From an uncultured Candidatus Saccharibacteria bacterium (lineage in GTDB: Bacteria > Patescibacteriota > Saccharimonadia > Saccharimonadales > Saccharimonadaceae): 38,042 bases of DNA. Below the pieces are notes generated by a model. That model did not search any database. It saw nothing but the letters and a program-made list of their open reading frames with translations, and was not told the DNA's origin. Below, one piece after another: positions 34,401 to 36,894 of this stretch (its first letter is position 1; every line of letters begins with the position of its first letter). A program made the translations under genes and the position numbers. The stretch lies in assembly GCA_947165975.1 (NCBI GenBank), contig CAMVCL010000009.1:1-38042 (forward strand). The letters run 5' to 3'.

Positions 34401-35284
34401 GTACGCCGAAAGGTCAAGCCTATGTATCGCCAATTGATGGCGTGGTAGAAATCTGGGAAGATGGTAATCATTACGTTGCACAAATCACTCCACAATCTGG
34501 CGCAATCGAGCGGTTTGAGCTTGATGGCCGTAAGCCTGCAGTCAAAGATGGTGAAAAGGTTAAATCTGGTACTACTTTGATCAAAAAGAGTGGCGACAAG
34601 GCTGCGATTAAAGCTCCACACGAAGGCGTTGTAGAACTTGTAAAAGACGCAATAATCTTGGTTGCTGCCGCTAGTGGCTCTGTTAAGCTCGAGATTCCTG
34701 GTGATGCTGAGTTGGTCGTTAAATCTAATGATACCGTTGAAGCGGGCGATAGATTGACTACTGGTTCCTTAAACTTGCAGGATTTGCTCAAATATAAAGG
34801 TATCGAAGCAACTGAACGTTACATTATGAACGATGTTCTCAACGTATATGCGGCTCAGGGACATGAAATTTCACCAAAGCACCTTGAAATTCTGGTTCGT
34901 CAGATGTTCTCAAGAGTACAGATTAAAGATCCGGGCGATTCGGACTTTGTGACTGGTGATATTACTTCACGAGCGACTGCAACTTTGGAGAATCAAAAAC
35001 TTGAAGAAGCTGGCAAGGAGCCTGCAACCTTTACGAATTTGCTACTTGGCATTACAAAAGTATCAATTTTCTCAGATTCGTTCCTTTCGGCGGCGTCCTT
35101 CCAGGATACTACTCGCGTACTTATCAATGCAGCCATCAATGGCCGTGTGGATAGATTACGAGGTCTGAAGGAGAATGTGATTATTGGTCGTAAGATTCCA
35201 GTAGGAACTGGAGTTACGCCACTTGAAGATTTTGAAACTTCTGACAGTAAAGAGCCAACAGAAGCAGATATCGAGAATCTATAA
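31451..35284 (+). CDS. rpoC: RNA polymerase beta' subunit lacking both zinc sites
   Basis: 1277 aa. The N-terminal core is clear (WSYGEVTKPETINYRTQKPERDGLFCERIFGPTKD), and the catalytic loop is NADYDGDQM (517-525; the usual Phe is Tyr, all three Asp kept). The zinc-ribbon stretch normally holding four Cys between FGPTKD and RRERMGH (about 64-94) has none. The second zinc site is also gone: positions matching E. coli C814, C888, C895, C898 are Ala845, Thr912, Pro919 and Ala922. The F-loop region after SGARGNISNI is divergent (KLASAEIGIMVD instead of RQLAGMRGLM). The bridge helix and EPVGVIAAQSLGEPGTQLTLDTKH are intact. The start at 31451 has GGAGAGGAG upstream; the stop is TAA. Confidence 0.97.
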   Translation: MAWMDNFISASDFDSIRLSVASRDDILNWSYGEVTKPETINYRTQKPERDGLFCERIFGPTKDINPHDSKLKGVRSREAAVDKEGNLVTKSITRRERMGHISLAAPVAHIWFMRGIPSALSLLLDITVKNIEKVVYFATYLITDAKTDEIQKTLESLEGQTNAARDAIKLRYEKEAKADGADVKALAEAQTKELEELEADYAAKKSMLDSFKKGGVITEVQYRNLPEEYEDLITVEMGATAIKKMLDEIDLDKLIEKLHKDCEEAKGQKEKKIQKRLKTLEGMQAAGIKPVDLILTVIPVIPPDLRPMIALPGGRFATSDLNDLYRRVINRNNRLKKLLDLNAPEVICRNEMRMLQEAVDALIDNSAAHGSRGANSTNGRRKLKSLSDLLKGKQGRFRQNLLGKRVDYSGRSVIVVGPELKLNECGLPKQMALELFKPFVISWLISNEYANNIRAASRLIESKETVVWDALDEVIKGKYVLLNRAPSLHRLSVQAFQPRLIDGKAIKLHPLVASGFNADYDGDQMAVHLPLSDAAQAEARELMSASKNLLKPADGSPVLAIYQDVVLGAYYLTYDKPGTDTGDPKAFSSVYEAEMAYDQGIIALQTPIRVFTKREIRDTTLGRVIFNEILPKDYPYDNSVQTKKHLSKVMADIFDRYGSEVMVKTADDLKDLAFEYETVASISTAKGDYPTYDEIDDFIAEGDAKTALIQQQFDDGLVTEEERYKLTIANWRDIDKKISDFLSSKLSEMDTDIAVMVNSGARGNISNIKLASAEIGIMVDINNNEIELPVKSSYKKGLNTLESFIATRGARQGQVSTALRTADSGYLTRRLVDVSQDVFTTDEVADDPGFMVYRNETELSGISFAARLNGRYTAEAIPGYLEADELITKEMAEQLEADEKIESVKIQSILSTTAVDGIPRKAYGIDMSTRELVAANEPVGVIAAQSLGEPGTQLTLDTKHGSGVAGSGAIARGLPRVEELLEARTPKGQAYVSPIDGVVEIWEDGNHYVAQITPQSGAIERFELDGRKPAVKDGEKVKSGTTLIKKSGDKAAIKAPHEGVVELVKDAIILVAAASGSVKLEIPGDAELVVKSNDTVEAGDRLTTGSLNLQDLLKYKGIEATERYIMNDVLNVYAAQGHEISPKHLEILVRQMFSRVQIKDPGDSDFVTGDITSRATATLENQKLEEAGKEPATFTNLLLGITKVSIFSDSFLSAASFQDTTRVLINAAINGRVDRLRGLKENVIIGRKIPVGTGVTPLEDFETSDSKEPTEADIENL

Positions 35285-35294
35285 TAGAATTAAT

Positions 35295-35417
35295 AACTAG
35301 AATAAATATCATTCGGGGCCGCGTCGCTCGCGCTCGTCGGTACGGGGCTTGCGTGCTAAGTCTCGCGCTGTCGCGCTCCGAATTGCCCCGAATTGATATT
35401 ATTCTAGTTGTTTTTTT
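35295..35417. repeat. GC-rich element in a long inverted repeat (rpoC-secY intergenic)
   Basis: Left arm 35295-35319 (AACTAGAATAAATATCATTC then GGGGC) and right arm 35385-35409 are near-perfect reverse complements over 25 bases, with a 1-nt slip. They enclose about 65 bases that are roughly two-thirds G+C by eye (GCGTCGCTCGCGCTCG..., TCGCGCTGTCGCGC) in an AT-rich genome. A T7 run follows at 35411-35417. It could act as a terminator for rpoBC and may also be a mobile or repeated intergenic element. Confidence 0.7.
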
Positions 35418-35460
35418 AGGTGATGTGTGTTATTATTAGATGTAGTTATTAAGAGGTTTT

Positions 35461-36894
35461 ATGCATTTCAAGACTATTTTCAAATCGCTAAAAAATAAAG
35501 ACATGCTGAAACGAGTAATGATAATTCTCGGTATCATTGTGGCTTATCGTTTATTGGCGCAGATTCCTGTACCAATGGGTGATGCTGCTACGTTTAAAGA
35601 AGCAGTCTCTAATTTGTTAGAAAAATCAGATTTTTCGAATTTTCTGAACTTAATTTCCGGTGGTGGGTTAGCCTCGTTTAGTATTATCCTTGTTGGTATG
35701 TCTCCATACATTACGGGTTCGATTGTGGTGCAGCTTTTGACTAAGGCTATTCCACGACTCGAAGAGTTATCGAATGATGGTGAGACGGGTCGTCGTAAGA
35801 TCAATCAATGGACGCGCATCTTGACTGTTCCTTTGGCGATTGTACAGTCCATTGCTTATATCTTTATCTTATATCAATCTACCGTTGCGGCAAATATTGC
35901 TTCTGATTTTACTCCTACTGCTGGAGATTGGGCTTTATCTGTGACGGCAATGACGGCCGGCTCGGTACTTTTGATGTGGATGGGTGAATTAATCACAGAA
36001 CAAGGTGTTGGCAATGGTATTTCTACATTGATTTTCGCGTCCATCATCTCACAGCTGCCTAATACTATGGCGACGCTCTGGGCTTCGCTGACTGATACTT
36101 CTCAGGGTTCGCTTAGCTTATTTGGATGGCTTAACCTACCAGTGAACCCAACTACATTCTGGATTATTCTTGGTTTTGCTGTTGCTATGTTGTTTGTAAT
36201 CTATTTCTTGGTTAAATTGAACGAAGCACAGCGTATTATTACAGTGAATTATGCTAAGCGTGTACATGGTAACTCGTCATATGGAGGCATTAAGTCGATT
36301 TTGCCTATTAAGATGATCGCAGCTGGTGTGATTCCAGTAATCTTTGCCACAGCGTTCTTGTCATTGCCGGCATTGGTTGGGCAAGTTATGATGTCGGTTA
36401 ATCCGAGCAGTGAAGTTGGTGCAGGACTAGTTTCAACCTTTTCAGCGCCATCAGCAAGTAACTTTAAGACTATGTATCCTGATGGAATTACTGGCCAGTG
36501 GTTTGTTTATCCAGTGGTATATTTTATCTTAGTATTTGCATTTACCTATTTCTATACTTCAATCATTTTCAATACGAAAGAAATTGCCGATAACTTACAA
36601 AAACAAGGTGGATTTATTGAAGGGGTACGCCCTGGGATTCAGACTGCAAATTATCTAAGTAAAGTAGTGAATCGTTTGGACTTGTTCGGGGCTTTGGCTC
36701 TTGGTCTTGTGGCAATGTTGCCGTTTATTACGGACTATATCTTTATTGTGGTTACAGGTGCACCAATAGGTCTCTCGATCTCGGGTACAGGTCTTCTAAT
36801 CGTAGTGACGGTGGCGTTGGAGAATCTAAGGTCGGTGGATTCTAGAGCACTAATGATAACCTATGACGATTTTGGGAATGAGCTTAAAGATTAA
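35461..36894 (+). CDS. secY: Preprotein translocase subunit SecY
   Basis: Pore subunit of the Sec translocon, 477 aa with about ten transmembrane segments. Typical stretches are RVMIILGIIVAYRLLAQIPVPMG, ISGGGLASFSIILVGMSPYITGSIVVQLL, GQWTRIL-like QWTRILTVPLA, GELITEQGVGNGIS, and a C-terminal NLQKQGGFIEGVRPG...TANYLSKVVNRL. It has AAGAGG before the ATG. In other bacteria secY is in the spc ribosomal operon and is followed by adk, map and infA; here a sortase overlaps its 3' end and infA comes next. Confidence 0.97.
   Translation: MHFKTIFKSLKNKDMLKRVMIILGIIVAYRLLAQIPVPMGDAATFKEAVSNLLEKSDFSNFLNLISGGGLASFSIILVGMSPYITGSIVVQLLTKAIPRLEELSNDGETGRRKINQWTRILTVPLAIVQSIAYIFILYQSTVAANIASDFTPTAGDWALSVTAMTAGSVLLMWMGELITEQGVGNGISTLIFASIISQLPNTMATLWASLTDTSQGSLSLFGWLNLPVNPTTFWIILGFAVAMLFVIYFLVKLNEAQRIITVNYAKRVHGNSSYGGIKSILPIKMIAAGVIPVIFATAFLSLPALVGQVMMSVNPSSEVGAGLVSTFSAPSASNFKTMYPDGITGQWFVYPVVYFILVFAFTYFYTSIIFNTKEIADNLQKQGGFIEGVRPGIQTANYLSKVVNRLDLFGALALGLVAMLPFITDYIFIVVTGAPIGLSISGTGLLIVVTVALENLRSVDSRALMITYDDFGNELKD

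Follow-up and report, generated by a model that had tools for sequence, protein, structure and literature searches.

Between rpoC and secY of an uncultured Candidatus Saccharibacteria bacterium lies a hairpin that is far richer in GC than the DNA around it, which raises the question of what this element is and how its long stem arose. We addressed this using the window, meaning the whole 38,042-nt stretch of DNA analysed (contig CAMVCL010000009.1), together with related genomes.

A GC-rich hairpin between rpoC and secY

The hairpin lies between rpoC, which carries Pfam RNA_pol_Rpb1 domains and ends at 35284, and secY (PF00344), which starts at 35461. A preliminary description had reported a near-perfect AT-rich inverted repeat around a GC-rich core, followed by a T-run, and each of these could be located. 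The parts are as follows.

35295..35312, plus strand: 5' arm, AACTAGAATAAATATCAT; locus-specific; L099, L210 and L206 have homologous arms that covary at this site
35313..35391, plus strand: 79-nt core of a dispersed element (covariance model 83.8 bits, E 7.9e-16; pair counts from 79 copies)
within 35313..35391, plus strand: P1 closing stem of the core, TCGGGG/CCCCGA, enclosing a three-way junction
35321..35356, plus strand: P2 hairpin of the core (alignment columns 9-44), based on covariation
35358..35384, plus strand: P3 hairpin of the core (columns 46-72), with covariation at 46/72, 49/69, 55/62 and 56/61
35392..35409, plus strand: 3' arm, ATTGATATTATTCTAGTT; the reverse complement of the 5' arm except for two bulges
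35411..35417, plus strand: T-run of seven T directly 3' of the stem, with which the hairpin is shaped like an intrinsic terminator whose loop is very large

Aligned without gaps, the inverted repeat has 28-nt arms (35292-35319 and 35385-35412) that are 79% complementary and 65 nt apart, and the outer stem becomes nearly perfect once two 1-nt bulges are allowed. The GC content is 0.64 in 35320-35399 versus 0.25-0.45 in the surroundings. The unit that is repeated elsewhere is 35313-35391; the arms outside it are locus-specific and do not belong to the repeated unit. As RNA, the hairpin folds with -60.8 kcal/mol, compared with -38.7 +/- 4.0 for shuffled versions (z -5.6; none of 200 shuffles as good), and the minus strand folds similarly.

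The core is a dispersed family found in one genus

The preliminary description had suspected a genome-wide repeat family, and searches of the whole genome and of related genomes bear this out: further copies in the same genome and throughout the genus exclude a single copy without conservation. With the covariance model we identified three copies in the genome of the window, the window copy included; the other two are both diverged, one near the N-terminus of a FemX-like gene (L002) and one in a linker of the GTPase Der (L003). In a sample of one genome per species, a DNA search detected the core in 17 of 60 genomes, all of one genus. The covariance model detected it in 70 of 80 genomes of that genus, at no more than 23 copies per genome, and gave no hit in 24 genomes that represent other genera of the order. 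Scanning GTDB genomes with a sequence pattern returned at least 119 stretches; among the matches listed, all records were Candidatus Saccharibacteria, mostly from ruminant gut and including Candidatus Nanosyncoccus alces.

This distribution suggests that the core is mobile; mobility is read from distribution because no transposase or integrase is linked to the core, the transposase search having covered Y1. Spread driven by a reverse transcriptase was rejected, as the copy-rich genomes G060, G026, G018 and G064 have no PF00078 match; neither reverse transcriptase nor Y1 presence tracks copy number. An exact-match search of viral contigs for a viral origin gave none. In a count of gapped inverted repeats on sampled contigs, coding inverted repeats were present in three sampled genomes of the genus, with none coding in G042, G054/G055 or G058 and none within ORFs of contig C1 from the genome of the window; G040, for which the shuffled control was equally high, was left out of this count.

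The core covaries as a three-way junction

Alignment of 79 cores revealed a conserved, covarying three-way junction formed by P1 (columns 1-6/74-79), P2 (9-44) and P3 (46-72). Across the alignment 94.0% of cells are paired, 18 of 28 pairs have changes on both sides, and there are 274 doubly changed cells, a level reached by none of 500 shuffles and compared with at most 57 for slid versions. Entire P2 stems are exchanged between copies (GCTCGC/GCGAGC, CGTCCG/CGGACG and GTTTTCCCC/GGGGAAAAC). The window copy has mismatches at two of 15 P2 pairs and, folded alone, adopts a different structure inside the core than the family model. The preliminary description had also raised a structured RNA; as regards a known family, no match was found, with the curated Rfam covariance models giving nothing at the gathering score nor at E up to 1. 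In several copies (L091, L096, L147, L160 and L054) a second hairpin, for instance ..CAATTCGCGTCCCAAGGGGCGAGCG, is nested in the P2 loop, and the genic ones among these keep the frame.

Most copies lie in frame within conserved genes

Most distinct copies (140 of 161) form in-frame, stop-free parts of open frames that span at least 150 aa; the other 21 are intergenic or located at gene ends, and none clearly disrupts a gene. According to NCBIfam, the host genes encode NifS, TrmD, MnmA, Der, AlaS, LeuS, LepA, ObgE, PcrA, PepN and others. The TAA or TAG common in the core would be read in two phases and is changed in all seven genic copies in those phases; since this number is small and such copies were counted as open by definition, stop avoidance supports rather than proves translation. 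From frame and stop avoidance together we infer that the insert is translated. For annotation, the extra Arg-rich peptides in occupied proteins would then be element-derived.

In NifS, the residues that are invariant across the alignment are untouched by the insert. An AlphaFold model of this protein, built from a shallow 29-row alignment, has a mean pLDDT of 73.7, with mostly about 45-60 in the insert region, and weakly supports a disordered loop there. The same NifS loop also holds other GC-rich elements with different cores, in frame and with paired arms: L164, L168 and L171 are of one type and L169 and L173 of a second, alongside L170 and, from the genome of the window, L166. Several element families thus seem to share tolerant sites. 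At the TrmD site of G060, a decayed in-frame remnant, AREFAFHSGLRPASHYI (L225), with an apparent core deletion suggests loss via in-frame deletion.

The arms are inverted copies of local host DNA

The core is flanked at each locus by inverted repeats of about 18-19 nt that are specific to that locus. Arm pairing stays near 0.9 over roughly the first 17 nt outward from the core and reaches the background of 0.57 by 20 nt, and true arm pairs have an energy of -27.9 kcal/mol versus -9.1 for arms taken from different loci; in 12 of 148 copies arm pairing is no better than the 5% tail of the control. For eight pairs of cores that are at least 98.5% identical, seven of them within one genome, left-arm identity is 0.35 versus 0.33 for all pairs. 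That near-identical cores have unrelated arms indicates that the arms do not travel with the core.

Comparison of occupied genes with empty orthologues, the latter from species about 75-84% identical in DNA, shows where the arms come from: one arm is host sequence, from which the other has been copied in inverted form. At MnmA site 2 the conserved (L)KDVFLR stretch of the host makes up the 5' arm and recurs inverted as the 3' arm, with arm scores of 14-16 in six occupied genes versus 3-6 in ten empty ones. Another MnmA copy (L090) is copied from the opposite side, that of the conserved VLVRLRH flank, and in a TrmD copy (L076) the host variant GGATGTTTGC has its counterpart in GCAAACATCC, down to the variant codon. 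Both orientations of the core occur at the same NifS, TrmD and MnmA sites. Across seven species the NifS arms differ yet pair in register (84% versus 39-49% when slid); because the host flank is itself conserved, this site could reflect one old insertion or repeated ones. Net insertion length is about the core only at MnmA site 2, the core plus 8-14 nt in TrmD and the core plus about 22 nt in NifS, and since it differs by site it does not separate insertion from overwriting. A pyrimidine adjoins the core in 97% of copies. The outer arm ends, 19-20 nt from the core, are enriched in CCC on the 3' side and in GGG on the 5' side, which may reflect a target preference or a trace of an older nested element (GGGTCCTG..CACCC).

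Template switching as a likely maker and keeper of the stem

The explanation that we favor as a whole, and with reasonable though not full confidence, is a non-autonomous mobile palindrome whose stem is drawn from local DNA, most likely by template switching. The 79-nt core would spread, or be homogenised, within genomes of one Saccharibacteria genus, and each copy would cap a stem of about 18-19 bp, built from one arm of original local DNA and a second arm copied from it in inverted form. When the DNA is replicated, the ends of the core, being self-complementary, would fold back in single-stranded DNA, and the polymerase would briefly copy the opposite flank and then return, so that template switching would both make and keep the stem. 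Genic copies would be read through in frame as a whole unit, adding roughly 30 residues at tolerant loops or linkers; intergenic copies would lie at terminator-like stems; and the window copy would have taken the place of the rpoC terminator loop. In documented cases template switching has made the arms of inverted repeats perfect and flipped the spacer between them (PMC8604942, PMC8794818), and it would explain both the two core orientations at one site and the arms changing together; arms copied from either flank also fit. Against it, the arm end near 18-19 nt is fairly sharp, which is not obvious from open-ended switching, the spacers in published cases are shorter than 79 nt (PMC8604942, PMC8794818), and the core's route to new sites is left unaccounted for.

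The fairly sharp arm length would be accommodated if the insertion event itself makes the arms, with dedicated machinery joining the core to a host 3' end, after which the hairpin would fold back, copy about 18 nt of flank as an inverted target duplication and rejoin. The presence of arms on nearly every copy, those with identical cores included, the pyrimidine beside the core and the NifS net length of about the core plus one arm all agree with such an event. Yet the net gain at MnmA site 2 roughly equals the length of the core, the arms at orthologous sites go on changing together, which would call for a continuing process or repeated insertion, and no candidate enzyme was found that tracks copy number, reverse transcriptase and Y1 included. 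We regard this account as possible but distinctly less probable; the same tentative standing applies to its corollary, that the element, by its own means of moving, creates an inverted duplicate of some 18 nt of target flank and so represents a new insertion mode. If true, each new copy would be born a near-perfect hairpin, half of it host DNA and pre-adapted for translation through.

Selection on RNA structure, with the stem setting the GC-rich core apart from the rest of the mRNA and arm pairing preserved through compensatory substitutions, would suit the covariation of the core and that of the arms at the orthologous NifS site, but selection alone explains neither the exact inverted copying of conserved host codons, rare variants included, nor the flipping of the core at one site, and we consider it unlikely. 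More doubtful still is insertion into the loops of existing hairpins such as terminators. Intergenic copies do lie in terminator-like stems, and some cores (L091, L147 and L160) have elements nested in their P2 loop; for the genic sites tested, however, the idea is contradicted by the empty MnmA sites, whose low arm scores indicate no palindrome. One empty TrmD site (L230) is partly palindromic by chance. That the element is an intron-like segment removed from the mRNA, or one bypassed by ribosomes, could draw on its strong structure and its position in essential genes; nearly all genic copies nevertheless keep the frame and avoid stops, which neither removal nor bypass would require, and we hold this to be the least probable of these readings.

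Comparison with known systems

The closest known kind of element is the Rickettsia palindromic element (RPE), relatives of which have been reported in Wolbachia and Methanocaldococcus. RPEs are dispersed palindromes of roughly 100-150 bp, found both in intergenic DNA and as in-frame insertions in conserved protein genes, where they add an extra peptide (PMC2229807, PMC10969869). The element described here is likewise a dispersed palindrome, of about 117 nt when the core and two arms of about 18-19 nt are counted, and likewise makes in-frame, stop-free insertions in conserved protein genes. The terminal inverted repeats of RPEs, in contrast, are described as part of the element, at 12 bp (PMC2229807), and their repeat identity as lost with time (PMC6649704), whereas the arms here are locus-specific inverted host copies that stay paired and are unrelated between near-identical cores. 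A covarying three-way junction as core and a different phylum are further differences. Because RPE terminal repeats belong to the element and the arms here do not, we class it as a variant of the mobile coding palindromes, set apart from RPE by description.

Coding inverted repeats whose arms evolve together, with template switching proposed as the cause, are also reported from mitochondrial genes of Nematomorpha (PMC6649704); in the accessible part of that report, those repeats are long and perfect, both arms encode conserved residues, and no dispersed conserved core is described. Template-switch mutations at quasipalindromes resemble the present case in that inverted copying perfects arms and flips the spacer (PMC8604942, PMC8794818), but the known cases are isolated short repeats, whereas here a dispersed element gains arms at each site. 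REP/RAYT elements and MITEs are similarly short, dispersed, non-autonomous and structured, and differ in that copies of the present element are mostly inside genes. With respect to MITEs, no fixed terminal repeat beyond about 6 bp moves with the core, and no target duplication was recognised, although the arms may overwrite one. A RAYT-type REP was rejected: the Y1 transposase (PF01797) is present in two of 60 genomes, that of the window (G000) is without it, and five control genomes have Y1 matches.

In the literature searched, which excludes most subscription journals, we found no relevant earlier report of palindromic elements in Saccharibacteria and no description that combines a dispersed core, largely placed in frame in essential genes, with an inverted copy of landing-site DNA. 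Very few lineages are known to carry mobile coding palindromes, Rickettsia being the best-known case, and the present family adds an abundant, independent case in tiny-genome episymbiotic bacteria, in genes that are likely essential and at recurrent tolerant sites. Since local flank sequence is preserved in the arms, every copy reveals how it or its stem was made, which renders two questions testable, namely how palindromes insert and how long perfect stems originate and are kept up.

The window copy at the probable rpoC terminator

Among relatives, the rpoC-secY site carries a full core in one other species (L099), what appear to be truncated remnants in G083 and G026 (L210 and L206), a different but similar element in G068 and G081, and a plain short terminator with no core in G003, G025 and others. 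The two arms have changed together here (CTAGAAT/ATTCTAG, CTGAAT/ATTCAG and CTAAAT/ATTTAG). Judging from these sequences, we conclude that the window copy is not new at this site and appears to have been retained, either as the rpoC terminator or as a substitute for it. The window hairpin is a stem-loop with a direct T-run 3' of a gene, where relatives have short terminators; the copy is probably now a component of the rpoC terminator and would still end rpoC transcription. A scan for the canonical terminator consensus, which allows loops of 3-8 nt, did not recognise the hairpin because its loop is large. The earlier idea of a terminator expanded by a REP/MITE-like element therefore holds in substance for a MITE-like expansion, given the short terminators of relatives, and fails for a RAYT-type REP.

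Just after the terminator and upstream of secY (window about 35423-35437), a GTGTG/GTATG..TAT-like motif resembles an extended -10 promoter; it was not listed by a consensus scan and is repeated at the same place in L193, L200 and L209. At two further loci (L218 in G006 and L221 in G018) a different gene, not rpoC, precedes secY, which shows that not every member of the genus has the rpoC-secY order.
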